NCBI GenBank assembly: GCA_016278485.1
Contig: JADQBT010000008.1
Location: 62,001-126,000, forward strand
DNA: 64,000 bases
Source of the DNA: Halanaerobiales bacterium
GTDB lineage: Bacteria > Bacillota > Halanaerobiia > Halanaerobiales > Halanaerobiaceae
Reading direction: 5' to 3'
Position numbers and translations under genes: made by a program. Position 1 is the first letter of the stretch. Each line of letters starts with the position of its first letter. The notes below the pieces were generated by a model. That model made no database searches and was not told the origin of the DNA. It saw only the letters and a list, made by a program, of their open reading frames with translations. Shown here piece by piece: positions 3,107 through 25,072 of this stretch.

Positions 3107-3280
3107 GAAAATCTCCTTAATAAATATCATTAATAAATATATTTTAACATAATACCTCTTATAATACTAACTTCTCTTTAGACAAAAAAAGGATTATTTT
3201 AAGTTTTATAAAAATATATTAGTAAGCTAATTAAACAAATAGATATAATAATTTATAGATGATAGTTGGTGGATATAGAT

Positions 3281-5527: not shown

Positions 5528-5532
5528 AAGGT

Positions 5533-6438
5533 GTGAATATAATAGATATGAAACAAATTACAGCCCGACTATTCATTTTAGCAGGGGCAATATTTTGGGG
5601 TACGACAGGTACCGTGCAAATTTTTGCACCTCTAACTGCTTCTCCACTTACAATTGGTGCTATGCGTGTAATTATGGGAGGAGTAATATTAACTTTATTA
5701 TTATTTTCAAGTGGTAACTATGATTTTAAAAAGAAATGGTCTAAAAAAGACCTGATTATGGCAGCAGTATTTATGTCTTCATTTCAACCTTTTTTCTTTA
5801 TGGGTGTCAAAAAGACTGGAGTGGCAGTCGGTACAGTTGTCGCAATTGCAAGTGCACCTATCTTTGCGGGTATTTTTAGTTATCTTTTAATGCAGAAGAA
5901 ACCAGAACGAAGTTGGTATCCAGCTACATTTCTGGCAGTCAGTGGTTGTATTTTACTTTTTACTAATAATGACCTGAGTGTTGATTTACTTGGGATAATC
6001 TTTTCCTTAGGTGCAGGTGTCTCTTATGCATTCTTTTCGCTTTATAATAAGAAACTTCTTAAAAATCATGCACCACTTGAAGTAGTCACTTTGGTTTTTG
6101 TAATTGGTAGTTTATTCTTTTTACCAGTATTTTTTTTAGCTGATTTGAATTGGGTTTTTAACTTACGAGGAATAACAACAGTTCTGTATTTGGGTGGAGT
6201 AACAGCAGCACTTGCTTTTTTATTTTATGCAATTGGGTTAAGATATACGACTACTGCTACAGCAGTAACATTAACATTGGCAGAACCATTAACAGCTTCA
6301 TTATTAGGGATTTTTTTAATAGGAGAGAAGTTAAGTCTATTATCATTACTCGGTCTTTTATTATTAATTTCAGGAATTATAATTTTATTTATTAATAAAG
6401 GAGAATCAGCAAATGGAAGAATATCAAATGGTAAATGA
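5533..6438 (+). CDS. EamA/DMT-family transporter, 10 transmembrane helices
   Basis: Drug/metabolite transporter superfamily protein, probably an exporter of a small metabolite or amino acid. About 300 residues arranged as two EamA repeats of five helices, with the typical first-helix stretch LAGAIFWGTTGT, a Gly/Ala-rich segment GVAVGTVVAIASAPIFAG in the first repeat, and the corresponding TATAVTLTLAEPLTA near the end of the second. The start is uncertain: GTG 5533 is almost on top of AAAAGG, while ATG 5548 (MKQITARLF) is about 14 bases from it. It sits between two c-di-GMP genes and its 3' end overlaps the next gene by 26 bp. Substrate unknown. Confidence 0.85.
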   Translation: MNIIDMKQITARLFILAGAIFWGTTGTVQIFAPLTASPLTIGAMRVIMGGVILTLLLFSSGNYDFKKKWSKKDLIMAAVFMSSFQPFFFMGVKKTGVAVGTVVAIASAPIFAGIFSYLLMQKKPERSWYPATFLAVSGCILLFTNNDLSVDLLGIIFSLGAGVSYAFFSLYNKKLLKNHAPLEVVTLVFVIGSLFFLPVFFLADLNWVFNLRGITTVLYLGGVTAALAFLFYAIGLRYTTTATAVTLTLAEPLTASLLGIFLIGEKLSLLSLLGLLLLISGIIILFINKGESANGRISNGK

Positions 6439-8215
6439 TAATCAATTTTCAAGTTATAAATATTTGATTAATAGTGCTCCTATTGGAATTTTTACTTCTA
6501 GGTCAGATGGGAAACCGCTTTCTATTAATCCTGAACTTGCTAAAATGCTTGGTTATGCTAATGGTGAAGAAGTTTTAAATAATTATCAGGATTTGGCTAA
6601 AGACCTTTATGCAAATTTTGAGCGGAGAGAAGAACTTATTAAACAGTTAGAAGAACATGGTGAGGTATTAAATTTTGAGTTCCGGGCAACAAAAGCAGAA
6701 GGGGAACTCATCTGGTTATCAATGAATGCCAGAATGAGCAAGAAAAACTCAGATGGTACATTTTTAATTAGTGGTTTCACTACTGATATTACTAAAGAAA
6801 AAATAGCAGAGCAAGAATTAATAGATAGCGAAAAAAAGTATAGGCAATTAGCGGAAACAGTCCATGCTATATTATGGGAATATAATATTGTTAATGATAG
6901 TTGGGATTATGTTGCACCTCAATCAGAAGAAATACTTGGTTATAAACCACAAGAGTGGAAAGATTATAATTTTTGGAAAAGCAAAATTCACCCTGATGAT
7001 CGGGATTGGGCGGTTAAATATTGTGCAAACTGTCTAGCAAAAGGGGAAGACCATGTTTTAGAATATCGATTTATTAAAAAAAATGGTGAGATAGCCTGGT
7101 TAAGAGATGAAGTAAATGTGGAAGTGATAGATGGTGAAGCAAGGTTTATGCGTGGTTTTATGTTAGACATTACTGAACAAAAAGAGCAGGAATATCAGAT
7201 TAATTTTATAAGAAACCATGATCCTCTGACTGAATTATATAATCGGACTTATTTAGAAGAAAAGATTTTACTTCTTGATGTTAAAGAGGAGCTACCTATT
7301 AGTATCATTATGGCTGATTTAAATGGTCTTAAAATGATTAATGATACTTATGGACATTCAGTTGGAGATGAAATATTAGTTGAAACTGCCAAGATATTAA
7401 AAAACGGATGTGATAAAACAGATTTAATCGCCCGTTGGGGTGGTGATGAATTTTTGATTCTTCTACCACAGACTAATTATGTTGAAACTCAAAAAATAAT
7501 TAGACAGATTAAAAATCTCTGCAAAACAACAGCTAATAGTAAAATACCTATCTCTATTGCAATGGGTATTGGGATAAAAGTGATTGCTAATCAAAAGATG
7601 CATACTGTTTTAAATAAAGCAGAAGCAAATATGAATCAGAATAAGTTGATTGAAATTAGAAGTACTAAAAACCATATCTTAAAAGAATTGCTTAAAAATT
7701 TAGATAAAAAAACCTTTGAGACAGAAGAACATACCTGGCGTATGCAAAAACTAGCTTTTGCTATAGCTGAAAAGATAAGTATTTCACCTAAAGAACTCGA
7801 GCGATTATCATTATTAGTTACCTTACATGATATTGGGATGACAATTGTACCAGAAGGAATTTTATATAAAGATACTAGTCTAACTCTGGATGAGTGGAAA
7901 ATGGTTAAAAAACATCCTGAGACTGGGGCCCGGATTGCTGCTTCGACAACAGATTTTGCTCATATTAGTAAAGAATTGTTATCTCATCATGAACATTGGA
8001 ATGGGGCAGGTTATCCGCAGGGACTTAAAGGAGATAAGATTCCATATTTAGCTAGAATGTTAGCTATTATAGATGCATATGATGTGATGGTTACTGGAAG
8101 ACCATACAAAAGGGCAGTTAGTAAAAATGAGGCTTTAGAAGAAATTAGTAGCTATGCTGGTAAGCAGTTTGATCCAAAACTAGTTAATAAATTTATGGAA
8201 GTAATGGAGATTTAG
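6413..8215 (+). CDS. PAS-PAS-GGDEF-HD-GYP c-di-GMP signalling protein
   Basis: Cytoplasmic sensor protein with both c-di-GMP synthase and phosphodiesterase modules. Two PAS domains (about 12-125 and 135-255) are followed by GGDEF (about 262-425; GGDEF at 343-347 intact) and HD-GYP (about 430-598). The allosteric I-site is degenerate: DKTD replaces RxxD five residues before GGDEF. In the HD-GYP domain the first motif reads HDIGM (472-476), so the Lys of HDxGK is Met, while HHE (from 525) and GYP (533-535) are kept. Net activity may therefore favour synthesis. AAAGGAG lies 9 bases before ATG 6413. The gene overlaps the end of the EamA gene, pointing to translational coupling. It is a paralogue of 25073-27349. 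Confidence 0.9.
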   Translation: MEEYQMVNDNQFSSYKYLINSAPIGIFTSRSDGKPLSINPELAKMLGYANGEEVLNNYQDLAKDLYANFERREELIKQLEEHGEVLNFEFRATKAEGELIWLSMNARMSKKNSDGTFLISGFTTDITKEKIAEQELIDSEKKYRQLAETVHAILWEYNIVNDSWDYVAPQSEEILGYKPQEWKDYNFWKSKIHPDDRDWAVKYCANCLAKGEDHVLEYRFIKKNGEIAWLRDEVNVEVIDGEARFMRGFMLDITEQKEQEYQINFIRNHDPLTELYNRTYLEEKILLLDVKEELPISIIMADLNGLKMINDTYGHSVGDEILVETAKILKNGCDKTDLIARWGGDEFLILLPQTNYVETQKIIRQIKNLCKTTANSKIPISIAMGIGIKVIANQKMHTVLNKAEANMNQNKLIEIRSTKNHILKELLKNLDKKTFETEEHTWRMQKLAFAIAEKISISPKELERLSLLVTLHDIGMTIVPEGILYKDTSLTLDEWKMVKKHPETGARIAASTTDFAHISKELLSHHEHWNGAGYPQGLKGDKIPYLARMLAIIDAYDVMVTGRPYKRAVSKNEALEEISSYAGKQFDPKLVNKFMEVMEI

Positions 8216-8292: not shown

Positions 8293-9927
8293 TTACTCTG
8301 CTACAGTACCTTCCCCAAAGCCAACTTCTTCAAGCCATTCAGTTGGATAACCGGCACTATTAATACCGTCTGGTGAGTTTATATAACCATCATTGTATTT
8401 GAAAATCATTTCATCAGAGAAATCCCACCATGCATTAACAACTTTCTGTGCCTGATTATAACTATAATCAGTTACAAAGTCTTTAGCTTTTTCAGCACCA
8501 TAACTTGCATAGATTTCCTGAGCTGCTTTATCAATTGCGGGCTGCATTGCGAAAAATTCATCTTCATATTTGTTCTGCATTGCTTGAATATCTTCAATCA
8601 TGTAAGAATATTTGAGATCTGCCCAATTTGAAACAAAATCAAATGCCCACCAGGCAGATGATCTATCAAACATATCTCTACGACCGGAAGTAAAAGCTTC
8701 TGGTAATTCTTTTGTTCCACTATAAATTGGTACATAACAGGTTGAATGGGGAGCGTCTTCGCCAAACCAGAGAACTGATTTCATTGGCGCAGGTAACCAG
8801 CTACGACTCTGTCCGACAAAACTATAAGAGCATCTGAACATTGAGATTGCTCTTTCCCAATCCATAGACTTTTTATCTTCAGGTTTATTAGCAGAAGGAG
8901 TAGCATATCTATTTGGTGTACCGAAAGGACCAGCTGCTAAGCCTTCAGTTAAGTCAAAACGTGTACCTTCATAGTGATCTCTTTTAATGGCCATTAAATC
9001 TTGCGCAGATACTTTTTTATCAGGTTTTACAGAGAAAGGATAACGATCAGCTTTAGGATCAAAGTTTTGTGAAGGAGCTAAGATAGATAAGACTCTCCAT
9101 TCACGACGTTTCTGATAATATTCTGCTCCATATGGATCTGGATTATAAGCTTCACAGAATACAAATTCTTCTGAAGAATCCCACCAACCCATATCTTTAG
9201 CAAATGACTTAACATTCTTTGAACCTAGTGCGTTTTCTGGATCATCAAGATCGAGAGTATCAATTCTACTTCTGTTTGCTGCTACTGTAATATGTCCATC
9301 AGGCACTCGTTTGGCGGCCCAGATTGCACCTAATTTTTCACTACCTGGAGACCAGAGAGGACCAGGACCTACTATTTCAAACATCCAGGCTTCTTCGCCG
9401 TCAACAACAGTGAGTGTTTCTCCACCATCACCATAGCCATATTTTTCAGCTAAAGATCCCATTATTTGGACAGCTTCTTTTGCAGTTTTAGCACGTTGCA
9501 GAGCAAGTCTTTCTAGTTCTTCAATCATTAAGATAGCGTCACTATTACGTAGATCACGACGACCACTAAATGTAGCTTCACCAATCATTACACCATGCTC
9601 ATTCATAAAAGGATAAGCTATGTGGAAATAAGTATAAGTTTCTTTAACTTGTGGTATTTGACCGGCTTCAGTCATTTCAGAGCCAGGAATACCTTCATGA
9701 CAGCGGCCTTTGTAAACTGTAGTCATTGTACCTTCAGCAAATTTTTGACCTTCAATAATTTGGATTCTAGCATCATAGTTTCCATCACAAGTGTGAGTTG
9801 TCATTACAGAACCGTCAACGGAAGCATCTTTACCTACCATAATTGTGGTACATGCATAAATATTTGAAACAGAGAAGACTAAAATCAATAGCGTCATAAA
9901 AATAATTTGTAAATATCTTTTTCTCAT
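8293..9927 (-). CDS. Secreted C69-family (NtN) dipeptidase
   Basis: Peptidase family C69 enzymes are N-terminal nucleophile hydrolases that cleave dipeptides. The first 25 residues form a Sec signal peptide ending NIYA, and Cys26 begins CTTIMVGKDASVDGS, the family's nucleophile motif. Cleavage by signal peptidase would thus expose the catalytic Cys directly. Further family stretches are HTCDGNYDAR, the GEATFSGRRD segment and DGEEAWMFEI. AAGGAGTG lies about 10 bases before the ATG. It is the last gene of the minus-strand unit that also carries an AspA-like peptidase, a DctM-like permease and DUF6305. Secretion and context suggest it breaks down extracytoplasmic peptides whose products are taken up. 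Preference for a given dipeptide is unknown. Confidence 0.88.
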   Translation of the reverse strand: MRKRYLQIIFMTLLILVFSVSNIYACTTIMVGKDASVDGSVMTTHTCDGNYDARIQIIEGQKFAEGTMTTVYKGRCHEGIPGSEMTEAGQIPQVKETYTYFHIAYPFMNEHGVMIGEATFSGRRDLRNSDAILMIEELERLALQRAKTAKEAVQIMGSLAEKYGYGDGGETLTVVDGEEAWMFEIVGPGPLWSPGSEKLGAIWAAKRVPDGHITVAANRSRIDTLDLDDPENALGSKNVKSFAKDMGWWDSSEEFVFCEAYNPDPYGAEYYQKRREWRVLSILAPSQNFDPKADRYPFSVKPDKKVSAQDLMAIKRDHYEGTRFDLTEGLAAGPFGTPNRYATPSANKPEDKKSMDWERAISMFRCSYSFVGQSRSWLPAPMKSVLWFGEDAPHSTCYVPIYSGTKELPEAFTSGRRDMFDRSSAWWAFDFVSNWADLKYSYMIEDIQAMQNKYEDEFFAMQPAIDKAAQEIYASYGAEKAKDFVTDYSYNQAQKVVNAWWDFSDEMIFKYNDGYINSPDGINSAGYPTEWLEEVGFGEGTVAE

Positions 9928-9984
9928 TAAATTAACACTCCTTAGTTATTATTTAATTGTTGCAATAAATCTTTAGCAAACTGC

Positions 9985-11157
9985 TTATTCATAAAACACT
10001 TTTTCTGCAACTGCCTCATCGGGATTTTTAAAATAATGACCTACACCATTGTCAATAACATCTGCATATTTAGGGATATTCTCGATGATTACCCCCTTTC
10101 CAGGATTTGTTTGATTCCAAATCTGACTAACCATCAGGGTAGTAGAACAATGTCTACCAACTCTTACATCAATAGGCCAGCCGTCTTCATCAATAGATTC
10201 ATATAGCAGACCAAATTTGCCTGCCCGCATTACAAAAGGATCTTTTCCTTCGAGCAATAATCTTTCGTCTGTAACACCTCTAACCCTATCTAAAAATGGT
10301 TCAGGTGTTTCAAATAAGAGTGATACAGCATCTGAATGGTCACCTATCTCACGATGTGATAATCCGTGGAGTGACTTGGGAGAAAATTCTATACCGATTG
10401 GCTCAGCAAATTCCATATCTGTTAACATCATTGATGCCATAGCGGCAATATTTTGGCCAGACTCATGCGCAACTATAGTGCTGATAACTGGATATTCCAA
10501 TTCAGCTTCATGTAAATCAATGAACAGATCAACATTTTCTTCTTTTATAACATTCATAAATCCATAGCAGATTTGTTCTGTTATTGAACCATCTTTCTTT
10601 CCGGGCCAGGTTCGATTTATGTTCCTAATATCCATATAGGCCAGCATTTGTTTACTTGGATAATGGACATATACTTCTGGGTCAGGCCAGGAATCAAGTG
10701 GGTTTGACCAACGATCTCCCATTCTGAATTTTTTTGTTCCCCAATCAGTTTTAATATTATAAAATTGAGGATAAGCATCTCCCGGTCTAGTAACAGTTGA
10801 AGCACTTCTATTTGCTCTAATAGCAATTATTAGTTTGCCTTGTTTTAAGACAGCATTTTCAGCAAAAATTTCAGCAGTAAGATTTGTTGCTGGCTCTTCT
10901 GGGTGTGAACCACCTATTAAAAATATTGTTCCTCCAGGTTTACCGCTGTCCAGGATATATATATTGCAATCAGCAACTGATCCTTTTAAGGGAGCAAAAT
11001 AATCTCCAAGTGTTTTAACTTCAGTTACAGAAGGACCTGCTACAACTGCCTCTTTGTAGTTTCGGTGTGCTAAAAAAGCTTTACCAGAAATAATAAGAGA
11101 AGCAACTATTAAAATCATTGTAATAATTTTAATAATATTTAATCTTTGTTTAGACAT
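9985..11157 (-). CDS. Membrane-anchored AspA/AstE-like zinc carboxypeptidase (M14 superfamily)
   Basis: Resembles the aspartoacylase/succinylglutamate desuccinylase branch of M14 zinc hydrolases. A single hydrophobic helix (about 9-29) anchors or exports it. Zinc ligands are recognisable as His85 and Glu88 in GGSHPEE and His216 in IDLHEAE, with a substrate-arginine region around RANRSAS. GAGGTG lies 5 bases before ATG 11157. It shares the DLHEAE motif with the peptidase half of 15359-16561, so the locus has two related enzymes. Because M14-like enzymes can cut amide bonds to acidic amino acids, a role in trimming a Glu/Asp-containing polymer is plausible, but this is inference. Confidence 0.78.
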   Translation of the reverse strand: MSKQRLNIIKIITMILIVASLIISGKAFLAHRNYKEAVVAGPSVTEVKTLGDYFAPLKGSVADCNIYILDSGKPGGTIFLIGGSHPEEPATNLTAEIFAENAVLKQGKLIIAIRANRSASTVTRPGDAYPQFYNIKTDWGTKKFRMGDRWSNPLDSWPDPEVYVHYPSKQMLAYMDIRNINRTWPGKKDGSITEQICYGFMNVIKEENVDLFIDLHEAELEYPVISTIVAHESGQNIAAMASMMLTDMEFAEPIGIEFSPKSLHGLSHREIGDHSDAVSLLFETPEPFLDRVRGVTDERLLLEGKDPFVMRAGKFGLLYESIDEDGWPIDVRVGRHCSTTLMVSQIWNQTNPGKGVIIENIPKYADVIDNGVGHYFKNPDEAVAEKVFYE

Positions 11158-11166
11158 TTTTTCACC

Positions 11167-11331
11167 TCATTTAATCCTCAGTATTCTTAGAATAAAGGGG
11201 ACTAGAATTACCGAATAAAGAACAGCTTCTTGATAATTTTCTGTTTTATATATTTCTCTGATGAGCACAAAGGCAATAAATGCACTTAATAAATAATAAC
11301 TGAACTCAATAACTGTGTTTAAAATACCCAT
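11167..11331 (-). CDS. Small 54-residue membrane protein, unknown function
   Basis: Two hydrophobic segments (about residues 5-22 and 35-49) are separated by a charged loop (REIYKTENYQE), and the protein ends in a basic tail. ATG 11331 is chosen because AGGAGG lies 7 bases upstream; a longer reading from 11364 would overlap the stop of the permease gene and has no such site. It is squeezed between the DctM-like permease and the AspA-like peptidase in a tight operon. It could be an accessory subunit of the permease, as small proteins are for TRAP-type carriers, but it shows no recognisable DctQ features. No family recognised. Confidence 0.65.
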   Translation of the reverse strand: MGILNTVIEFSYYLLSAFIAFVLIREIYKTENYQEAVLYSVILVPFILRILRIK

Positions 11332-11353
11332 AAAATAACCTCCTGAAAAAATA

Positions 11354-12643
11354 TTATCCTCCAACTAAGAATGAGAGTTGATTACTAAAAATAAGAAATA
11401 TAGTACATAGTCCAAGGATAAATGCCATAGGAACTAGGCATGTTTTAAGAAAATCTCGGTAATAACGCCCCTTATAATTTAATTCAATAACAGTGGCTCT
11501 CCCAACAACTGCAGTAGGAGGGAGGATATCACCTATTGGCCACATAACGGCCATTGCTGATAAAATAATAATTGCATTAAAGCCCTGCATATTAAATAAA
11601 AATATTAATGGCACTCCCAGCAGAGGAGCAACTGCATATTGTAATAAGCCTTCAGAGACAGGGAGGATAAGAAACAGAGTAGCAAATAAAAATCCTATTG
11701 GAAGAGTTACAACAGCAAGGGATATTAATCCACGTGCACCACTTAAAGCCATAACCTGAATTAGAATTCCAACTACAATCATGATCCCAACTAATGGGAT
11801 AAGAGAACGAATTGTTCTGCCAGCAATATCAAGAATATTTAGTTTTTTAGGACTCATAATATACATTGTTATAGCAGAAATAATAAAGATAAACGGTAAG
11901 CCAAGAATAGGCATTGTAAAAGGAAATAGACGACCTGCAACTATTAATAATATTAAGACTAAGAATGGAGTTCCAACTCTAATCCAATTCATTTCAGCAG
12001 GTGGCTCCGGCAATTCCTTTAATATTTTATCAAGATCTGGATTTTCACCTTTAGCACCGAGAAAGAACATTGTAAATAGAGAACCTGTGATTGTAAGAAC
12101 AAATAGTGGCTGCATAAAACCTACATAAGGCATATTAGCACCAGCTGCAGCCATCATAGCCCAAAGATTTATGGGAGGAGCAGCAGCACTCATAGAAGCA
12201 CAGAGAAAAATAATCGCAGCAGTTTTTGTTTTAGAGATTCCCATATAGACTAATACAGTACCAACTAATGTACCCACTGTTAAGACAGTGGCAGCTCCGG
12301 CTCCAGTTAGAGCTCCAGGTATCATTAATATAAAAGTTAAAAAGAGTAGTGTTAAAAACCGATGTTTATGAAAACGAATAATGATTTTGCGTACCATAAA
12401 GACTATGCCACCTGATTCTTTGACAAGATTAATAAATAGGGTAGCAGTGATGAAGATTAAGGAAACATCGTAGTAAGTAAAAGAGCCTTCCACTAAATGT
12501 CTAACAGGAATCCCGCCCGTATGATAAATGGCAGCAGCTATAGCGGCCAGTAACATAGCTAACTCTGTATTAAGTTTAAAATATGTGCCAATAGCGAAAG
12601 TCACTGCTATGATAATAAGTATAATTCCAGCATGTAAGAACAT
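11354..12643 (-). CDS. DctM-like permease of the ion transporter (IT) superfamily
   Basis: A polytopic carrier of about 429 residues with some 11-12 helices, resembling TRAP large subunits (DctM) and related anion carriers. Supporting stretches are the two half-site loops GALTGAGAATVLTVG and SAAAPPINLWAM, and in the second half a matching VMWPIGDILPPTAVVGRA segment. No DctP binding protein or clear DctQ subunit is nearby, so it may work alone or with the 54-residue protein downstream. ATG 12643 follows GAGGTG by 7 bases; the GTG at 12652 overlaps that site. Given the peptidases and the dicarboxylate-type regulator in the locus, uptake of an acidic amino acid or dicarboxylate is the best guess. 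Confidence 0.78.
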   Translation of the reverse strand: MFLHAGIILIIIAVTFAIGTYFKLNTELAMLLAAIAAAIYHTGGIPVRHLVEGSFTYYDVSLIFITATLFINLVKESGGIVFMVRKIIIRFHKHRFLTLLFLTFILMIPGALTGAGAATVLTVGTLVGTVLVYMGISKTKTAAIIFLCASMSAAAPPINLWAMMAAAGANMPYVGFMQPLFVLTITGSLFTMFFLGAKGENPDLDKILKELPEPPAEMNWIRVGTPFLVLILLIVAGRLFPFTMPILGLPFIFIISAITMYIMSPKKLNILDIAGRTIRSLIPLVGIMIVVGILIQVMALSGARGLISLAVVTLPIGFLFATLFLILPVSEGLLQYAVAPLLGVPLIFLFNMQGFNAIIILSAMAVMWPIGDILPPTAVVGRATVIELNYKGRYYRDFLKTCLVPMAFILGLCTIFLIFSNQLSFLVGG

Positions 12644-12676
12644 TAAATTCACCTCATTTCTATGTCTTATATTTCA

Positions 12677-13243
12677 TTATTTAATTTGGAAGAATTCATT
12701 GATAGCTGCTCCCATATCCATATTTTTTTCAAAAAATACGACTGGTATATCTAATTCATTACTTTTTTTAGTAAAATATCCATCTTCATTACTTGAGTTT
12801 TTAATAAGTAAAGCATCAGCATCAGGAATAACAATTTCAATAGATCTTGCGTCATTTTCATCAACTCTTCTTGCCATACCTTCAACATGAGCTCCAATCA
12901 ATTTTATATCTAACTCTTTAGCTGTTTTGATTAGGTCACTGATTCTTTTTTCCTCTTGATTCATATTAGTACCAGCTGCGCCCATACCTTTACCACTGGT
13001 TCCCATTGTAATAATGAGAGTTTTATATTCATTATCTTTTAAATCTTGGGCAGTTAATAAATCTTTTTGAGTACAATCAATATTTGACTGTTGGGAAATC
13101 ATCTTCACCATTAGAGCACCTGGACTTTGTCCACAGGTAGTTACAACAACGGGTTGATTAAATTCCGGAAGATCAGCAGCATGTGCTGAAAAACTTAAAA
13201 TTAAAGTAAAACAGGCTATAACTAATAAAATTTTTAATTTCAA
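12677..13243 (-). CDS. Secreted DUF6305-family protein
   Basis: Function unknown. It has a Sec signal peptide (residues 1-22, ending AHA) followed by one domain with the pattern PVVVTTCGQSPGALMVKM, then TMGTSGKGMGAAG and a VIPDADALLI stretch. The same landmarks (PVVITAPGQNPDGIMIK, AIGHSCKGVGAAG, VPNADYLII) occur in residues 30-150 of the gene at 15359-16561, so the domain is present twice in the locus. The GQS/GxSxKG pattern suggests a nucleotide- or ligand-binding Rossmann-like fold, but that is speculation. The start is TTG 13243 behind AAAAGGAGGAG. It is the first gene of the downstream unit, after the terminator at 13352-13375. Confidence 0.75.
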   Translation of the reverse strand: MKLKILLVIACFTLILSFSAHAADLPEFNQPVVVTTCGQSPGALMVKMISQQSNIDCTQKDLLTAQDLKDNEYKTLIITMGTSGKGMGAAGTNMNQEEKRISDLIKTAKELDIKLIGAHVEGMARRVDENDARSIEIVIPDADALLIKNSSNEDGYFTKKSNELDIPVVFFEKNMDMGAAINEFFQIK

Positions 13244-13341
13244 AAAAATCTCCTCCTTTTAAATTTTAATTAATATATATGCATATTTCTTGACGAAATA
13301 ATTTTCTCCTATTTATTCTCTTATTTCTCTCTGAATATTAT

Positions 13342-13375
13342 AAAAATTTAAAGACCGCTTCGACATAAGCGGTCT
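13342..13375 (-). terminator. Intrinsic terminator of the pgsB-to-regulator operon
   Basis: On the minus strand AGACCGCTT and AAGCGGTCT form a perfect 9-bp stem starting 10 bases after the response-regulator stop, followed by TTTAAATTTTT. It separates the upstream transcription unit from the DUF6305 unit, which must then start in about 13244-13340. I see no consensus promoter there, which fits an activated promoter. Confidence 0.8.
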
Positions 13376-13384
13376 CAAGTCTAA

Positions 13385-14005
13385 TTATTTTAGTATATAT
13401 TTGTGGATAGGCCGGCCGACTTTACCATAATCCATTTGCAGTTTAATAATATTATTCTCTTCTAAAAAATTCAAATATCGATGTACTGTTTGGTAGGCAA
13501 GTTTTGTTCCGGCTGATATTTCCTGAATTGTATGTGGTTTATTAATTTCAGTTAAAAACTGATATACAATTTTCAAGGTATTATCACTCATTCCTTTAGG
13601 AATATTTAAGTCTTCAACTTTTTGTAAGGCAGGATAGAGTTGATCATTATAATTAAGATGAAGTTTAATGCGAGAGATTAGGTCAGCTGTTCTAATCGGC
13701 TTGTTGGCAAAATCATTTGCTCCAGCCTGTAGAAACTTTTCGGCTAAGTCTAGTGATTCATCTACAGTTAACACCAGAATAGGTATTTCAGTATTGATTT
13801 GTCTTACTTGACGAACAAGTTGTAGACCATTTATATCAGGCATGTGATAATCGACCATCAATAAATCATAATTTTTTTTTGTTAAATAATCTAGGGCTTT
13901 TAAACCTCGGTTAGTTGTTTCAATCTGAAAATTGGCAACTTCTGCAACAGCTTTCAATGTAAATAAGATATCAGATTCATCATCAACCGCCAGTATTTTA
14001 CTCAT
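13385..14005 (-). CDS. DpiA/DcuR-like (CitB family) response regulator
   Basis: Two-component response regulator. The receiver domain (1-118) has the acidic pair DDE at 8-10, the phospho-acceptor Asp52 in VDYHMPDING, Thr80 and Lys102 in NKPI. The C-terminal half (about 140-206) is a winged helix of the type seen in citrate/C4-dicarboxylate regulators, with YQTVHRYLNFLEE as recognition region and a basic GKVGRPIHKY end. It overlaps the kinase stop by 8 bases behind a strong GGAGGTGATAAATA site, so partners are certain by position. Likely targets are pgsB and the DUF6305 unit on either side (inference). Confidence 0.88.
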   Translation of the reverse strand: MSKILAVDDESDILFTLKAVAEVANFQIETTNRGLKALDYLTKKNYDLLMVDYHMPDINGLQLVRQVRQINTEIPILVLTVDESLDLAEKFLQAGANDFANKPIRTADLISRIKLHLNYNDQLYPALQKVEDLNIPKGMSDNTLKIVYQFLTEINKPHTIQEISAGTKLAYQTVHRYLNFLEENNIIKLQMDYGKVGRPIHKYILK

Positions 14006-15368
14006 TATTTATCACCTCCGGAAGGATAATAATTGCTTCGGTACCTTGATTTAATTGACTTGAAATTTTAATTGTACCTGCATGGCTTTCAATAACTTCT
14101 TTTACAAAGTGGAGACCTAAGCCAGTGTTTTCTAAACTTGTTGTATAGCCTATTTGCCAGACATTTTCAATTTTATCTGGAGGTATCCCTTTACCATTGT
14201 CTTTGACTAATATTTTAACTTTACCTTGAGCAATTCGGTTGACATATATATTTATTTCTCCAACTTTGTTATCAATGGCCCGAAGTGAATTATCAATTAG
14301 ATTTATTAATGCTCTGGATAATCTTACTTTATTAGCTTGTATAATTATTTCTTCATCATAATGAAAAACAACCTGATCGGCCATTTCTTCTAAAGAGAGT
14401 TGGATTTTTAGAAAATCAAATAACTCTTCAATATTTAGTTCTCTTTTTTTATCTCTATAAAGAATTTCTGAAATCATCTGTGACATTTTATCGGCAGAGT
14501 CTGATATTTTATCAGTGTATCGCGATATTTGCAGGTCATTAATTTTCATATCAATCACCCCACTTAATCCTTGAATAGTAACAAGAGGTGTCTTTAGATC
14601 ATGCACAAGATGTTTTATTTCACTAAAATATCTTGATTTAACAGCTTCTAGTTCTAGTTTCCTTATTTTTTCTTCTTTAGACCGACTTTCTTCTACCAAA
14701 TTAAGTTTACTATAATAATCAATAACTACTCTTGTTAGAATTAAGGCATTAATCATAATAATTATGGAAAAAGTAAATCCAAAGAAATTCATAATGTGAG
14801 TAGCTTCAATAAACTCGGTTACTTCCAGGATAGAGACTGTCATTTCCCCTTTTCCAAATCCAAACTGTGATAGAAATGGAATAATATCAAGCCAATCTAT
14901 ACTGAACAGGAATAGGCTAATAATTATTGTCTTAATGAAATTATGATGAATTTGTCTAGTTAGATAGTGAAGTAAAAAGATCATAATAATTGTCAAATAG
15001 GAAGGACCTGCAAAGACAAAAGCAATATCATAGATCGAACTAATTAACTGATAAGTGATTGGAATAATAATCAAGGTAGTAAGAAAAGCAAAATCCTGAT
15101 AATGAAAAAAATTATCAAGTCCTTCCGCTAATATAAAGGCCCCCACATAGATAGGAAGATGGCGTAAGGTATTCAACATAACAAGTTTGGTTGAAACCAA
15201 GAGAAGGAGACCACTATCTTGTTTGTTAATACTTTGATAAATTTGTTGTAGGATATTATACTGATGATTTTTTGTAAAAGTTGGCAACATAATTGCTCCA
15301 ACAAGGATTAGTAATCCAATAATAACTTTGTTTTTATCTAAGCTATTGATCCTATCTTTTAAGGCCAT
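13998..15368 (-). CDS. Membrane histidine kinase, partner of the DpiA-like regulator
   Basis: Sensor kinase with an N-terminal membrane domain of about six to seven helices (residues 15-215) and no large extracytoplasmic loop, so it probably senses a membrane-associated or transported signal. A coiled linker leads to the dimerisation helix with phospho-accepting His256 in HLVHDLKTP, then an ATPase domain with N-box LINLIDNSLRAID, G1 DNGKGI and G2 GLGLHFVKEVI. The ATG overlaps the last codons of the DUF6305-peptidase gene by 10 bp. The absence of a PAS or Cache sensor differs from standard DcuS/DpiB kinases although the regulator is of that type. Confidence 0.88.
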   Translation of the reverse strand: MALKDRINSLDKNKVIIGLLILVGAIMLPTFTKNHQYNILQQIYQSINKQDSGLLLLVSTKLVMLNTLRHLPIYVGAFILAEGLDNFFHYQDFAFLTTLIIIPITYQLISSIYDIAFVFAGPSYLTIIMIFLLHYLTRQIHHNFIKTIIISLFLFSIDWLDIIPFLSQFGFGKGEMTVSILEVTEFIEATHIMNFFGFTFSIIIMINALILTRVVIDYYSKLNLVEESRSKEEKIRKLELEAVKSRYFSEIKHLVHDLKTPLVTIQGLSGVIDMKINDLQISRYTDKISDSADKMSQMISEILYRDKKRELNIEELFDFLKIQLSLEEMADQVVFHYDEEIIIQANKVRLSRALINLIDNSLRAIDNKVGEINIYVNRIAQGKVKILVKDNGKGIPPDKIENVWQIGYTTSLENTGLGLHFVKEVIESHAGTIKISSQLNQGTEAIIILPEVINNE

Positions 15369-16561
15369 CTTACTTCAACTCCATTTAATGAAAGCAAAGA
15401 AGTGATAATCTTAATCTGATAATCAACTCTTTTATTAAGAGGAAGCTTTCGACATGTTTCTATAGTATAAGCAGGAATGTTTAAGTTTTTTCCTACAGCC
15501 CAGGTGAGACTACCACTGACAGGATAAGTTATTAGGACAAATTTTTCTTTTAGGTCTGTTATTTTCTCATTTAGAGATTCTGTGACCATTGCTCCTTGCC
15601 AGACAGTCTCTTCCTCTTGATAAGCAATTATAGATTGTCCAAGTTGATTTTTATCAAGGTAATTGAATTCCTCAGCTTCATGTAAATCTAAGACAAGATC
15701 AGGAGAAAACTTTTCAATTAAAGTAAATATTTCCGCAGCTCTTTTTTCGCTCTGGGTACCATTAATATTTCCTGGAAAGGCACGATTAAGATTGGCTAAA
15801 CCAGGTGCATTACGTTTAAAGGCAGCGATTGCTGCAGGATTTGCTCTGGGAATAACTATAATACGTCCACCACTAATTACAGGTTCAAGCATCTTTAAAG
15901 CTGTTTGATAACCAGCAATTTCATCCCCATGTGTGCCAGCATTAATAAAAATGGTAGGTTCTTTTTGATCACCATTAATAAAATAGGCCACTTCTTGAGA
16001 TTGGCTTTTAAAAAGCTTAGCTAATATTGGTTTGATACGAGAAAGATTTTCGGCAATTGCCAAGGGAATATTATATTTTTGGGCAGCTTTAGAAAAATAG
16101 TTATCAAAATTACTTTCCTTAGATATGATTAAATAGTCAGCGTTGGGGACAGCAATATTTAATAAATTGTCGGATCGTTCTTCACGGCGACCTGTACCTC
16201 CAAGATGGGTAATGATAATAAACTTACCTTTATTTTTAGCTTCTTGAATTAAATTTTTTGTTCTAGTTAGTTCTTCTGCAAAATTAACTCCGGCAGCACC
16301 AACCCCTTTACAACTATGGCCAATAGCAAGAATTAAGGTAGGATAATTATCAAGTTCATTAGCTTGAAGAAAAGGGAGATAATTATAATCGATTCCTTGT
16401 TGATCTAAAACAACTTTGATCATGATACCATCTGGATTCTGGCCGGGTGCTGTGATTACAACTGGCTGAGCAGGATAAATTTTAATACTTTCAGCTTGTA
16501 TTAAAAATGAAAATGTAAATAAACAGAGTAAAAACAAAAAGATAATTAATAGTTTTTTCAT
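15359..16561 (-). CDS. Secreted fusion of DUF6305 with an AspA/AstE-like zinc peptidase
   Basis: A signal peptide (1-23, ending IQA) precedes a DUF6305 domain (about 30-185; GQNPDGIMIK, GHSCKGVGAAG, VPNADYLII) and an M14-superfamily peptidase domain (about 200-395). Zinc ligands are His211 and Glu214 in GTHGDE and His294 in LDLHEAE; the substrate loop IPRANPAAI and the NLNRAFPG motif are typical of AstE/AspA relatives. AGGAGGG lies 7 bases before the ATG. It follows pgsW closely and precedes the kinase. Polyglutamate hydrolases with an M14-like fold are known, so release of glutamate or oligomers from the product of PgsB/C is a reasonable hypothesis, not shown by sequence alone. Confidence 0.8.
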   Translation of the reverse strand: MKKLLIIFLFLLCLFTFSFLIQAESIKIYPAQPVVITAPGQNPDGIMIKVVLDQQGIDYNYLPFLQANELDNYPTLILAIGHSCKGVGAAGVNFAEELTRTKNLIQEAKNKGKFIIITHLGGTGRREERSDNLLNIAVPNADYLIISKESNFDNYFSKAAQKYNIPLAIAENLSRIKPILAKLFKSQSQEVAYFINGDQKEPTIFINAGTHGDEIAGYQTALKMLEPVISGGRIIVIPRANPAAIAAFKRNAPGLANLNRAFPGNINGTQSEKRAAEIFTLIEKFSPDLVLDLHEAEEFNYLDKNQLGQSIIAYQEEETVWQGAMVTESLNEKITDLKEKFVLITYPVSGSLTWAVGKNLNIPAYTIETCRKLPLNKRVDYQIKIITSLLSLNGVEVRWP

Positions 16562-16581
16562 CGTTGATCCCTCCTGTAATG

Positions 16582-17664
16582 CTATTTTTTAGCTATAAGA
16601 AAGTAGAGAGGTATTATGATCAAAATAAAAATTAAGAATGTTATAATATAATTATTGTATTGAACCTGAAAATAGACATTTGCTTTGCCGGGTTTTGGCA
16701 AGGGTACTGGATCCACTGTGACCCCATTTTTAATTGCCAAATCTTCTAGATTAAGCAGATGGATAACTGGTATATCTTTTTTAAGAAAGCGAAAAATAAG
16801 TCCAATATTATCATATTCTTTTTTTAAATTATGGGGAAGAGTTAATCCATTACTAAAATTTACAGAGGCAGCTGAATTACCAAAGTTAGCTGAGGCTCCT
16901 CCAATATTAATAAAACATTTAATAGGTTTTTCACTATTGGCCTGATAGATTTCCATTCTCCGCTCAATGCTTTCTTCAAGATTATCTTCATAAATTAAAG
17001 GAAGTTCTGATTCTTCAGCTAATTGAAAGAATAGCTTACGGCTATCTTCTAAAAGTAAATTTTCCGCTCGATCATTGTTACCGCCAAGTGAGATGGCACT
17101 TAAATTTGTCTTAATTAGCTGGTTTTTTCTTAAAACATTAAGCATATCAATAAATGTATATTCAACTAAATTGGCTCCATACATTGAAGCACCCAGTGAA
17201 TAGATGATGATAGGTTTTAATTCCATTATCTCAGCAGCACTTAAAACTGCTATTATTAAGCCTGGAAAAGATCCACTGGCACCGATAGCAATTGTGTCAC
17301 CAGCTTTGAGATCAAGTTCATTAAAATATCTAATAAGTAATGCAGCAAAATCAGGATTTGTAGAAGTCCTTTTAGCCTTGAGATCACCAAGAGTTGTAGT
17401 GAGAGGAGTAAATTCTCCGCCAATAAGGCCTGTCATATTTGGATCTAGATTGGAATCTAGAGAAAGTCCTTTCTTAACTTTAGTCTCGTAAATTATTTTT
17501 TCTGCTTTTAACATTAAATTGGCTGCCTCTAGCTGTTTTTGATAAACCGGATATTTAGTTTTATGACTTGTCTGGAATACCAATATTAGTCCTATTATTG
17601 CCAGCAAAGCCGTTAAGATAAGGATTGGCAGAGCCAATTTTCCTTTTACCCAATGTTTATACAT
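16582..17664 (-). CDS. pgsW: Poly-gamma-glutamate system protein PgsW
   Basis: Matches the 'poly-gamma-glutamate system protein' family that accompanies PgsB/PgsC in some anaerobes. It has a helix at the N-terminus (about 13-31) and another at the C-terminus (about 337-357), with a large extracytoplasmic or cytoplasmic domain between that carries a GDTIAIGASGSFPGL stretch, a SLGASMYGAN stretch and an INIGGASANFG stretch. The molecular role is unknown. AAAGGAG lies about 9 bases before the ATG and pgsC ends 14 bp upstream, so pgsB-C-W form one unit. No pgsA/capA gene is present in the window; PgsW may take part in polymer export instead, which is inference. Confidence 0.75.
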   Translation of the reverse strand: MYKHWVKGKLALPILILTALLAIIGLILVFQTSHKTKYPVYQKQLEAANLMLKAEKIIYETKVKKGLSLDSNLDPNMTGLIGGEFTPLTTTLGDLKAKRTSTNPDFAALLIRYFNELDLKAGDTIAIGASGSFPGLIIAVLSAAEIMELKPIIIYSLGASMYGANLVEYTFIDMLNVLRKNQLIKTNLSAISLGGNNDRAENLLLEDSRKLFFQLAEESELPLIYEDNLEESIERRMEIYQANSEKPIKCFINIGGASANFGNSAASVNFSNGLTLPHNLKKEYDNIGLIFRFLKKDIPVIHLLNLEDLAIKNGVTVDPVPLPKPGKANVYFQVQYNNYIITFLIFILIIIPLYFLIAKK

Positions 17665-17677
17665 TTTTAAGTCTCCT

Positions 17678-18106
17678 TTAAATTATTAAAAATGTTATTA
17701 AACGTACAAGAATAGAAACAATAGTTAATGAAGCAAGTGTCGAAAATATACCTTGTCTTAACATGTCATTTGCGAGTAACCCCGCTATGATATAGCCAAT
17801 TACTCTAATATCTTCTGATAAAGGGAGATAATGAATAAAAAGTGTGCGATAATACCAACCAATTAGATAGCCAATAATTACACAAGCGGTAAAACGCCTT
17901 CTGCTATACATAATAACATAGTTTGATAATATATTCACAATAAAATAAGTTAGAAGTGCAGTTATTATAGTTGCCAATATTCGCCAAGGGGCTTCCCAGA
18001 AAAAGGCCAAATAACCAGGAACGATGATTCCTCCTGTATATAATCCTGTCAATTCTGTAAATATAAAACTAAGTAGAATACCTACTCCGACTGATTCTAT
18101 GATCAT
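17678..18106 (-). CDS. pgsC: Poly-gamma-glutamate biosynthesis membrane protein PgsC/CapC
   Basis: A 142-residue polytopic protein (four to five helices) with the CapC signature ELTGLYTGGIIVPGYLA near the N-terminus and a GLLANDMLRQG stretch later. CapC forms the membrane synthase with CapB, which ligates glutamate units. Its ATG overlaps the TGA of pgsB by four bases (ATGA), the classic coupling seen in cap/pgs operons. Length and topology are normal for the family. The polymer could also be made from another amino acid; the sequence does not settle that. Confidence 0.9.
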   Translation of the reverse strand: MIIESVGVGILLSFIFTELTGLYTGGIIVPGYLAFFWEAPWRILATIITALLTYFIVNILSNYVIMYSRRRFTACVIIGYLIGWYYRTLFIHYLPLSEDIRVIGYIIAGLLANDMLRQGIFSTLASLTIVSILVRLITFLII

Positions 18107-19302
18107 AATATTTCCACTCCATTCTCTGCAAAAAATGAAACTATCTTTTCGGCATTACCATGAATATTGCCACAACCAAAAAGAATAAGGTCCTGACCTA
18201 AACTTATTTTACTTAAATTTTTATTTAATTTAAAAAATGGTCTGTTAATATTTAGTAAAAATATTTTATCTTTGGGAATACCATTTTTCATTAGCAGTTT
18301 TTTCTGCTTATATTTAAGTGCACCAGTTAATATATAACCTTGAAATATTTCTGAATCTGTCAAAAAAGAGATAAACTCGTTAAGACGAAAGCTGCGATCA
18401 GAGCGGTGATTAATTAAAGCATAACAGTTTGTTTTATTAAAATTAATGCCAAAATCAATAAAGTTTTTGGATTTTGCCTTATTCCAGACTATTTTGGTAG
18501 AATAACTATCATTGGCGGCAAATGCATTTATAAGTAGATATTTGTTCAGGTCTTGTTTCAGCAAATAGTATTGCAAATTTCCAGGATCTTGTTTTATGGA
18601 ATGCATACCTTGTAAAGCAATTTTTCTATCAATAGATAAGATAGAAGCAATTTTTATAGCACAGGCAATATTATCTGAAAAGACTGGCCACTTGAAATCA
18701 TTAAGTTCTTCTTTTGTTGGTAGAGAATCTAGAGCTGAAATAAATTCATTTCCTTTTTCTAGCGACTTTCTTTTAATAATCTCTACCGATTCCTTAGCAG
18801 TAGAAATTACTTTTTTATTTACTGGCAGACTAAGGGCAATTGTTTCTGCTATCTCTGAAATTGATTCACCCATCACATCAAGATGGTCATGTCTGATATT
18901 AGTAATTACAGTTAAATCAGCTTTTAGAAACTGGTTTTGACTACTCCATTGTATTTCTGGGGAGATGGCCATACATTCAATAACAAGGATATCTACTTTT
19001 TTTTGAGCGGCTAGTTTAACAATTTTCTTCTGTTCAGAAATACTTGGTGGACCATGGCGAATAATTTCTCTTTCACTACCATCTGGATAGATAATTCTTG
19101 GGGAAGTACCTGTCGTTTTTGCCAATACTTTTAATCCGCCTTTTTGTAAAGCACCTGCAATTAATCGGGTAGTTGAAGATTTCCCTCGCGTTCCATTAAC
19201 ATGGATTATGTAGGGAATATTAGCTAAATTTTTTCTATGGTTTTTCTTTTCGAAAACGCCAAAGATAATGAATAATATAAATATTAAAAAAATAATACGC
19301 AT
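18103..19302 (-). CDS. pgsB: Poly-gamma-glutamate synthase ligase subunit PgsB/CapB
   Basis: ATP-dependent amide ligase of the Mur-ligase superfamily that adds glutamate to the growing chain. An N-terminal hydrophobic helix (1-16) anchors it; the P-loop GTRGKSST is at 37-44, followed by TTGTSPRIIYPDG, the ECMAISPE motif, and TNIRHDHLDVMG, all characteristic of CapB. At 399 residues it has normal length. ATG 19302 is preferred because AAAGGTG lies about 6 bases upstream; an ATG at 19317 precedes that site. It is the first gene of the unit, and an inverted repeat lies in its upstream region at 19338-19365. Confidence 0.92.
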   Translation of the reverse strand: MRIIFLIFILFIIFGVFEKKNHRKNLANIPYIIHVNGTRGKSSTTRLIAGALQKGGLKVLAKTTGTSPRIIYPDGSEREIIRHGPPSISEQKKIVKLAAQKKVDILVIECMAISPEIQWSSQNQFLKADLTVITNIRHDHLDVMGESISEIAETIALSLPVNKKVISTAKESVEIIKRKSLEKGNEFISALDSLPTKEELNDFKWPVFSDNIACAIKIASILSIDRKIALQGMHSIKQDPGNLQYYLLKQDLNKYLLINAFAANDSYSTKIVWNKAKSKNFIDFGINFNKTNCYALINHRSDRSFRLNEFISFLTDSEIFQGYILTGALKYKQKKLLMKNGIPKDKIFLLNINRPFFKLNKNLSKISLGQDLILFGCGNIHGNAEKIVSFFAENGVEIL

Positions 19303-19337
19303 AATTTCACCTTTCATAAATCGTATTTCAATCTCAG

Positions 19338-19745: not shown

Positions 19746-19824
19746 TTTATTAATAATTTCGTGAGTTAACAAGATAGTGTGATAAAGTAGTGGGTGGACA
19801 AAAAACACTTAAGGAGTGGAAATT

Positions 19825-21435
19825 ATGATAAAAAAAGCAATTTTAATTAGTTTTGTTCTTATATTGGTGATGATGAGTATGCAAGTAATGGCGGCTGATG
19901 GAGACAGATATGGTGGGAATCTTGTTTTTCCTTTACCTTATAATGGTGGTGTAGATACATTGGATCCAATTATGACTAATAGAACACAGTCATTAATTCC
20001 TATTAAAAATATTTTTGCTAGATTAGTTAATATTAATCCAGAAACATTAGAACTTGAACCAGCTATTGCAAGTTCCTGGGATGTTTCTGAAGATGGTAGA
20101 GTATATACGTTCAATCTAAGAGAAGGAGTAAGATTTCATAATGGTGATGAACTAACAGCTTCAGATGTAAAGTTTAGTTATGAGAGAATAATGGACCCTG
20201 AAATAGCATCATCTGTTTCACATTTATTTTTAAATGTAGTTGGGGTTGAAGAATTTAAAGCAGGTAATAGTGTTGGTATTAGTGGCATTGAAGTAATTGA
20301 TCCTTATACTTTGCAGATTACTTTAAATTCACTTGATGTTAATTTTTTATATAATATAGCTCATGTGGAAGCAGGAATTGTACCTCAATCAGTTGTAGAA
20401 GAGGTTGGTGCAGATTTTGCTAATAATCCGGTTGGAGCGGGCCCATTCAAGTTTGTTAGCTGGGTGCGTGGTAGTGAAATAGTTGTGGAAGCATTTGATG
20501 ATTATTATCAAGGCAGACCATATCTTGATCAAGTTAATTTTCGTATTATGACAGAGGCATCTGCGAGAATGGTTGAATTCCAATCTCAGGGTCTTGATAT
20601 TGATATCGTATCTGCTTCACAGTACACACGTTACAAAAATGATCCAACATATAATGATCAGTTAATTGAGGTACCTGAATTATGGACGAGAAATATTCAT
20701 TTTAATATGGATGTAGAAGCATTACAGGATGTAAGGGTAAGACAGGCTTTTAACTATGCAGCAAATGAAGCGTTAATTGTAGAAAGATTGCTAGCAGGTA
20801 AAGCTTATCCAGCAACTGGATGGTTTCCACCTAGCTCAAGTGCTTATAACTCCGAATTAGAAGGTTATGATTATGATTTGGAAAGAGCAAAAGAACTGAT
20901 GGAAGCAGCAGGTTATACTCCAGAAAATCCTTTGCAGTTAGAAATCCTTGGTACTGATAATCCTTCCTGGGGTATCAGAATAGTTGAGGCTATAATGCCA
21001 GATTTAAGGGAAGCTGGTTTTGAACTAAAACCTGTCTTAGTTGATGGAGCAACCTTGATGGATCAGATTACTTCCGGTGAATTTGATGCAGCAATTTATT
21101 CATGGGGTGGATCTGTTTCACCGATCAACTATATTAGTCAATACTTCTGGTCTGAAGTTGATCGTTCTTCTGGAAATTATACTAACTATAGTAATCCTGA
21201 ATTTGATGGATATATTGAGGCAGCCATGCAAACTATTGATGCAGAAGAGAGAATTGAATTATTACAGCAAGCAGAACATGTATTAGTAGAAGATCCACCT
21301 GTTTGGTTCTATAATTATAACAAAGCGGTTGCAGTTACTCAACCATGGGTACATGGTGTAGTAGCTACTGCACAAGAACTAACATTTATACCAATTGAAC
21401 AAGTATGGGTAGATGAAAACAGTCCTAGGAAGTGA
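19825..21435 (+). CDS. Periplasmic substrate-binding protein of a peptide-type ABC transporter (SBP family 5)
   Basis: Family 5 solute-binding protein, 536 residues, with a Sec signal peptide (1-23, ending VMA) and no lipobox Cys. Family features include GGNLVFPLP, TLDPIMTNRTQS, the signature region EDGRVYTFNLREGVRFHNGD and the typical DVRVRQAFNYAANE segment. ATG 19825 has AAGGAG 8 bases upstream. It is the first gene behind the lysine riboswitch, so its ligand is probably lysine or lysine-containing peptides, although family 5 proteins normally bind peptides, nickel or sugars. The 15-bp hairpin after its stop would favour higher levels of this protein than of the permeases. Confidence 0.92.
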   Translation: MIKKAILISFVLILVMMSMQVMAADGDRYGGNLVFPLPYNGGVDTLDPIMTNRTQSLIPIKNIFARLVNINPETLELEPAIASSWDVSEDGRVYTFNLREGVRFHNGDELTASDVKFSYERIMDPEIASSVSHLFLNVVGVEEFKAGNSVGISGIEVIDPYTLQITLNSLDVNFLYNIAHVEAGIVPQSVVEEVGADFANNPVGAGPFKFVSWVRGSEIVVEAFDDYYQGRPYLDQVNFRIMTEASARMVEFQSQGLDIDIVSASQYTRYKNDPTYNDQLIEVPELWTRNIHFNMDVEALQDVRVRQAFNYAANEALIVERLLAGKAYPATGWFPPSSSAYNSELEGYDYDLERAKELMEAAGYTPENPLQLEILGTDNPSWGIRIVEAIMPDLREAGFELKPVLVDGATLMDQITSGEFDAAIYSWGGSVSPINYISQYFWSEVDRSSGNYTNYSNPEFDGYIEAAMQTIDAEERIELLQQAEHVLVEDPPVWFYNYNKAVAVTQPWVHGVVATAQELTFIPIEQVWVDENSPRK

Positions 21436-21446
21436 GGTGTCTAATC

Positions 21447-21486
21447 TAAATGGGGCTGTCTGTCAGCTTGAAGGCAGTCCCATTTA
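21447..21486 (+). promoter_or_regulatory. 15-bp intercistronic hairpin between binding protein and permease genes
   Basis: TAAATGGGGCTGTCT pairs with AGGCAGTCCCATTTA (15 bp, two G-U pairs, 10-base loop). It lacks a T-run, so it looks like a processing or 3'-stabilising element rather than a terminator. It also covers the alternative permease start at 21450. Confidence 0.65.
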
Positions 21487-21494
21487 TTATAATT

Positions 21495-22427: not shown

Positions 22428-22440
22428 GGGAGGAATGAAA

Positions 22441-24900: not shown

Positions 24901-25072
24901 ATTCTTCACACCCTAACACTTGTTAGTAGTCATAAGTATATCAAAAGACTGGCTATTATAAAAGTAAGAATATATACAACCTTAAATATATTGACTTTTT
25001 AGAAAGGACTATTGCTTTTTTTGCCGAAGATATGATTATACTAAATCAAAGTGTTTGAGAGGGGGTTGTATT

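Follow-up and report, generated by a model that had tools for sequence, protein, structure and literature searches.

Poly-gamma-glutamate-type synthesis genes are linked with predicted hydrolases, a TRAP-like permease and a two-component system in a Halanaerobiales bacterium and in many other phyla

Poly-gamma-glutamate is best known as a capsule or slime of Bacillus. A 64,000-nucleotide stretch of DNA from a salt-loving Halanaerobiales bacterium (hereafter, the window) carries eleven adjacent minus-strand genes (8293-19317) in which synthesis genes of this type are joined to putative hydrolases, a permease and a two-component system. All eleven genes, listed earlier from the sequence alone (the original prediction), were found at the coordinates given there. 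The first unit comprises pgsB, pgsC, pgsW, a DUF6305-AspA fusion, a histidine kinase and a response regulator, in that order. The second comprises DUF6305, a DctM-like permease resembling those of tripartite ATP-independent periplasmic (TRAP) transporters, a small membrane protein (hereafter, sTM), an AspA-like protein and a secreted C69 hydrolase. The two units are separated by a terminator-like hairpin, which follows the response regulator gene and precedes the second DUF6305 gene. The features are as follows.

18103-19302, minus strand: pgsB, Mur-ligase-type poly-gamma-glutamate synthase, membrane-anchored (TIGR04012, 364 bits, cut-off 222.7; PF08245, 45 bits)
17678-18106, minus strand: pgsC, membrane partner of the synthase (TIGR04011, 127 bits, cut-off 96.5; PF14102, 125 bits)
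16582-17664, minus strand: pgsW (TIGR04332, 369 bits, cut-off 100)
15359-16561, minus strand: fusion of DUF6305 and an AspA/M14-like domain, secreted (PF19823, 174 bits; PF24827, 62 bits; cut-off 25 each)
13998-15368, minus strand: histidine kinase (PF00512, PF02518)
13385-14005, minus strand: response regulator with winged-helix output (PF00072, 92 bits)
13351-13376, minus strand: terminator-like hairpin (10-bp stem, 5 G-C pairs, T-rich tail)
12677-13243, minus strand: DUF6305 protein, secreted, candidate substrate-binding protein (PF19823, 169 bits, cut-off 25)
11354-12652, minus strand: DctM-like (TRAP large subunit-like) permease, about 13 hydrophobic segments (PF06808, below cut-off)
11167-11331, minus strand: sTM, 54-residue two-helix membrane protein (alignment; C-terminal PFxLRxLxIK motif)
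9985-11157, minus strand: AspA/DoeB/M14-like zinc hydrolase, predicted to be membrane-anchored (PF24827, 23.2 bits, cut-off 25)
8293-9927, minus strand: C69 N-terminal-nucleophile hydrolase, secreted (PF03577, 237 bits)

Most gene identities proposed in the original prediction were borne out, including the 54-residue membrane protein, which is correct when read from its ATG. Two labels fell short of their Pfam cut-offs: DctM for the permease (15.9 bits against 23.8) and, narrowly, AspA for the second hydrolase. The number of terminator-like sites across the region was not above chance expectation.

To follow the association across genomes, a PgsW profile was used to scan bacterial and archaeal genomes, one for each species, and 78 loci were returned. 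Blind clustering of the 1116 open reading frames around them recovered pgsBCW, a generic ABC ATPase and just seven other families present in more than seven loci: DUF6305, AspA, the permease, the response regulator, the kinase, gamma-glutamyltransferase (GGT) and C69. The DUF6305-permease-sTM-AspA set stands beside pgsBCW in Bacillota, Fusobacteriota, Thermotogota, Spirochaetes, Gemmatimonadota, Bacteroidota, Aminicenantes, Latescibacterota, KSB1 and Pseudomonadota. The specifically halophilic role suggested earlier was not upheld, the system being found also in Fusobacterium, Clostridium, Gemmatimonadota, Bacteroidota and Kosmotogales. Among 84 non-redundant permease modules from public genomes, sTM was present in 81, AspA in 80 and DUF6305 in 70. 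Conserved association of the two units had been set beforehand as the test of the proposal, and they were linked, with pgsW as the marker, in 41 of the 84 modules. The pgs genes lay upstream of the permease on the same strand (17 cases), downstream (14) or on the opposite strand (11), which means that the linkage was either re-made more than once or retained through rearrangement. Adjacency of the two units is thus far beyond chance. A fortuitous meeting of unrelated operons, for which the terminator-like site between the units might speak, is effectively ruled out by this recurrence in many phyla and orientations and by the co-occurrence statistics described below (Fisher p 4e-34).

The synthase core, PgsB and PgsC, is of an already known kind: both pass curated models, as in the Bacillus PgsBCA(E)/CapBCA(DE) systems. 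PgsB contains the P-loop GTRGKS and a single N-terminal hydrophobic segment. PgsW has a hydrophobic segment at either end and between them a domain of ~270 residues, probably extracytoplasmic; invariant loops of the family alignment include GSFP, NIGG and related ones. An AlphaFold2 model of PgsW was highly confident (pLDDT 96) and had no fold match in PDB at E<=0.001, so the modelled domain may represent a new fold. In contrast to the Bacillus systems, PgsW here occupies the place of PgsA/CapA. No PgsA/CapA (PF09587) was found among the locus genes, the CapA family did not recur around the 78 homologous loci, and the genome of the window contains only weak CapA matches (36 and 26 bits, in frames of 1183 and 515 residues). 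The earlier statement that capA and capD are missing agrees with the lack of any CapA or GGT gene in the annotated part of the window (3266-24909). In Bacillus subtilis PgsA is dispensable, and PgsBC alone yields an L-rich polymer (PMC6029982). Fusobacterium nucleatum is a polyglutamate producer (Candela 2009, as cited in PMC4928254 and PMC3815933). The locus is present in Fusobacterium gastrosuis (L065). A search of the genus reached three genomes, one of them positive; presence of the locus in F. nucleatum could not be shown. PgsBCW would, on this analysis, make a gamma-glutamate-type polymer.

In Atribacterota (L017, L018, L020, L024, L025, L062) pgsW is separated from pgsBC and mostly adjoins genes of a histidine-phosphatase-family protein and a sodium:solute symporter. 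The idea that PgsW functions without PgsB in this phylum was dropped: five of the six genomes tested have a full-scoring PgsB at another place, and none was found in the sixth, of 1.1 Mb.

The permease appears to be a distant relative of TRAP large subunits. Its family profile aligned over its full length (positions 10-412) with the TRAP DctMQ structure 9pym at E=0.0036. The order secreted protein-permease-small membrane protein also recalls TRAP (DctP-DctQ-DctM) systems. Unlike in these, the secreted protein is a single-domain DUF6305 and not a two-lobed DctP, and the small subunit is the 54-residue two-helix sTM and not a four-helix DctQ. The sTM alignment contains invariant Y, P and R residues, and its gene usually sits between those of the permease and AspA. 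For DUF6305, AlphaFold2 produced a compact three-layer alpha/beta domain (pLDDT 96) with no close relative in PDB (best TM-score about 0.55) and no match there to a binding-protein fold. The near-invariant residues of the family include GQ, K, E and R; these could fit binding of an acidic ligand. The best Foldseek matches were SGNH esterases, and this candidate was rejected: TM-scores were low, and the near-invariant GQS motif tolerates N and G in place of Ser, which makes SGNH-type catalysis by DUF6305 unlikely.

Copies of DUF6305 fall into two types. In the family tree, 22 kinase-adjacent and 67 permease-adjacent copies were separated by a single change (support 81/71), compared to 19.8 changes needed with shuffled labels. 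The window has one of each: the fusion protein, with DUF6305 at residues 32-184, is of the kinase-adjacent and the stand-alone protein of the permease-adjacent type. Such a split is as expected for a binding protein that serves both sensing and transport. There is a real chance that transporter and binding protein represent a new class. A fuller proposal, which could well be correct but is advanced here tentatively, is that the DctM-like permease works with sTM as a minimal small subunit and with DUF6305 as a single-domain binding protein, the three making up a binding-protein-dependent importer of a new class, dedicated to gamma-glutamyl oligomers of the cell's own polymer. On this proposal DUF6305 would be a new family of ligand-binding proteins, acting for a histidine kinase as well, and PgsW would be a new fold replacing PgsA.

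The kinase gene is located directly 3′ of a DUF6305 gene in 22 of 42 loci. The kinase has a multi-helix membrane sensor part without a large periplasmic sensor domain, and a domain search revealed no sensor-domain match in it. The regulator had been described as dicarboxylate-type; this was not confirmed, its DpiA-like helix-turn-helix scoring 17.4 bits with a cut-off of 27, and, given also the kinase result, assignment to CitAB/DpiBA-type dicarboxylate systems found no support. The arrangement is similar to binding-protein-linked two-component systems of TRAP or TctC type in that one family would serve a transporter and a histidine kinase; it differs in DUF6305 itself, which shows no sequence relationship to the binding proteins known so far and lacks a close fold in PDB. 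In PgsW-negative genomes, DUF6305 is also directly followed by the same kinase/regulator family (L119, L154, L158-L163, L178-L180, L184-L186), and these loci mostly adjoin an Opp/Dpp peptide ABC transporter. There DUF6305 probably has a second, sensory use.

Dependence of the permease on the synthesis genes was assessed in one draw of 398 genomes from the phylum of the window. PgsW was above cut-off in 24 genomes, DUF6305 was present in 45, and a full-length permease in 22, where it scored at least 356 bits compared to at most 55 bits for ordinary TRAP permeases; the one intermediate score came from a 90-residue fragment at a contig end (G378). All 22 genomes were PgsW-positive, and no full-length permease was found in the 374 PgsW-negative genomes, which bears out the association of the two units proposed in the original prediction. 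Fisher p values, which treat genomes as independent and are therefore weakened by relatedness, were 3.6e-34 for permease and PgsW and 1.3e-21 for DUF6305 and PgsW; the positives span about a dozen families. Two PgsW-positive genomes, G270 and G317, lack the permease; their pgs genes are on short contigs, one of which starts inside an AspA gene. Conversely, the permease was absent from all three Myxococcota genomes with PgsBCW (L056, L061, L066), where no DctM-like permease was detected anywhere, so the permease is dispensable for synthesis. In the sample, then, the permease requires PgsBCW but not the reverse. Several genomes contain multiple modules and a single pgsW, the modules often being unlinked; together with the permease-free Myxococcota, this fits a role in consumption of the polymer rather than in its synthesis.

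These data bear on two alternatives. The second unit might take part in surface assembly, with hydrolases that set chain length or anchor the polymer in the manner of CapD, and a permease, sTM and DUF6305 that aid export or recover only a by-product. Strict dependence of the permease on PgsW would suit this, as would the hydrophobic N-terminal segment of the AspA proteins, and in a related capsule system the GGT-family CapD anchors the polymer (PMC4497714). We nevertheless consider it unlikely, because of the Myxococcota genomes and the unlinked extra modules, because TRAP-type transporters are importers, and because in pgsW-free genomes DUF6305 is also associated with the sensors of peptide importers. 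Alternatively, the module could be a general peptide scavenger merely frequent in polymer-making genomes. Loci were read in 20 of the 23 genomes with DUF6305 but no PgsW: 17 have an Opp/Dpp transporter nearby, most have the same kinase/regulator family, and in seven genomes of this group a PgsB search returned only matches at the level of Mur ligases. This neighbourhood, and the dipeptidase nature of C69 enzymes, are what a scavenger would predict. None of the 20 loci contained the permease, however, and its absence from the PgsW-negative genomes, as well as the physical linkage across many phyla, make the scavenger very improbable.

The proposed cutting step involves three proteins. The AspA/M14-like domain of the fusion contains GTHGDE and DLHE motifs. 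The second AspA-like protein has conserved H..E, DLHE and NLNR motifs, and its family profile matched DoeB/AspA structures (2qj8, 6twm) at E<=1e-10. As in AspA/AstE/DoeB and M14 hydrolases, the H..E, H and NLNR motifs are conserved; unlike these, the proteins are predicted to be secreted or anchored (the N-terminal hydrophobic segment possibly being a membrane anchor) and have a family-specific stretch of many invariant residues, with family-specific invariant arginines in the pocket. In their predicted enzyme type they can be likened to phage PghP, a zinc carboxypeptidase-like poly-gamma-glutamate hydrolase (PMC4497714). In the C69 protein the nucleophile Cys follows the signal peptide; against the NCBIfam dipeptidase equivalog it scored 212 bits, missing the cut-off of 250.

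The slot taken by C69 in the window is filled by GGT in many relatives. Of the 84 modules, 31 have GGT, 30 have C69, 5 have both (mostly two modules side by side) and 18 have neither, an alternation with Fisher p 7e-6. In a tree of 78 permeases a single branch, supported at 100/100, had every C69-linked row on the same side, and the GGT/C69 label needed one change compared to 20 in shuffles; both sub-types coexist in several genomes. A single GGT is encoded in the genome of the window; it is on a different contig, and its open reading frame, as read, showed no obvious hydrophobic N-terminus. GGT is an exo-hydrolase of poly-gamma-glutamate that frees terminal glutamate (PMC4497714, PMC4928254), and in Bacillus PgdS is accompanied by an unlinked ggt (PMC4497714). 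GGT-kind hydrolases thus act on the external product there too; unlike Bacillus, the locus described here has linked M14/AspA-like and C69 hydrolases, a permease, DUF6305 and a two-component system. We predict that some C69 peptidases work on gamma-glutamyl substrates in the place of GGT.

The hydrolases also bear on the identity of the product, which might instead be another amide-linked amino-acid polymer or a short conjugate, PgsW marking a different chemistry. The position of PgsW and its confident model without a known fold, the frequent replacement of GGT by C69 and the arginines of the AspA pocket would all be in line with this. Opposed to it are the scores of PgsB and PgsC, well over equivalog cut-offs, GGT in the same slot of many relatives, and F. 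gastrosuis, which has the locus and whose relative F. nucleatum is cited as making polyglutamate. We regard a different product as quite unlikely.

The reading that we favour, and hold to be probable though by no means secure, is that a poly-gamma-glutamate-type polymer is made, cut outside the cell, sensed and re-imported. PgsB and PgsC would ligate glutamate into a gamma-linked polymer and move it through the membrane, with PgsW standing in for PgsA/CapA, which is usually the third component. The two M14/AspA-like zinc hydrolases together with C69, or GGT in many relatives, would break the external polymer down into short gamma-glutamyl pieces or into glutamate. The permease-type DUF6305 would bind the pieces and pass them to the TRAP-like importer, formed by the DctM-like permease and sTM. 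The kinase-type DUF6305, which in the window is joined to a hydrolase domain, would offer these pieces to the histidine kinase as well; free fragments would then control expression through the response regulator. The make, trim and re-import scheme of the original prediction thus still appears the best, and it is strengthened by the presence of GGT in the same slot in many relatives.

Several observations weigh against this scheme. Kinship of the permease to TRAP is weak by both Pfam and the PDB profile, no canonical DctP or DctQ was seen at the locus, and DUF6305 is single-domain, unlike known TRAP binding proteins. C69 proteins carry a dipeptidase annotation and not that of a gamma-glutamyl hydrolase. 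One genome (G036, 76% complete) has the module while PgsW and PgsB were not found, and is a possible counter-example; another (G378), also with neither found, has a 90-residue permease fragment at a contig end. Finally, PgsW-positive genomes show no enrichment of glutamate mutase (about 5 of 24, compared to about a fifth overall). The genome of the window does have a full gene for the glutamate mutase epsilon subunit (G000:C28:33149-34465); a link to glutamate fermentation through this enzyme was considered and not seen.

The gene partnership appears to be undescribed as well as widespread. In the open-access literature, subscription papers being beyond reach, there was no mention of DUF6305 or TIGR04332, only unrelated mentions of PgsW, and only two incidental co-mentions of poly-gamma-glutamate and TRAP-type transporters; the earlier suggestion that the whole combination may be new is consistent with this. 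From these data, a second form of the polymer seems to be widespread, with synthesis tied to dedicated cutting, sensing and re-uptake; if so, the polymer would be a reserve from which the cell could recover carbon and nitrogen. The locus offers testable roles for DUF6305 and PgsW, and a candidate for a new type of importer.

Genes next to the locus were also inspected. Divergently from pgsB starts a further group, whose membership in the system is uncertain and which has no ATPase gene directly downstream:

19816-23253, plus strand: Opp/Dpp-type binding protein and two permeases (PF00496, PF00528)

These genes are not beside pgsB in the closest relatives (L009-L011). Regulatory HD-domain and GGDEF/HD proteins are encoded at both flanks (3266-8215 and 23725-24909), which suggests cyclic-di-GMP control nearby.

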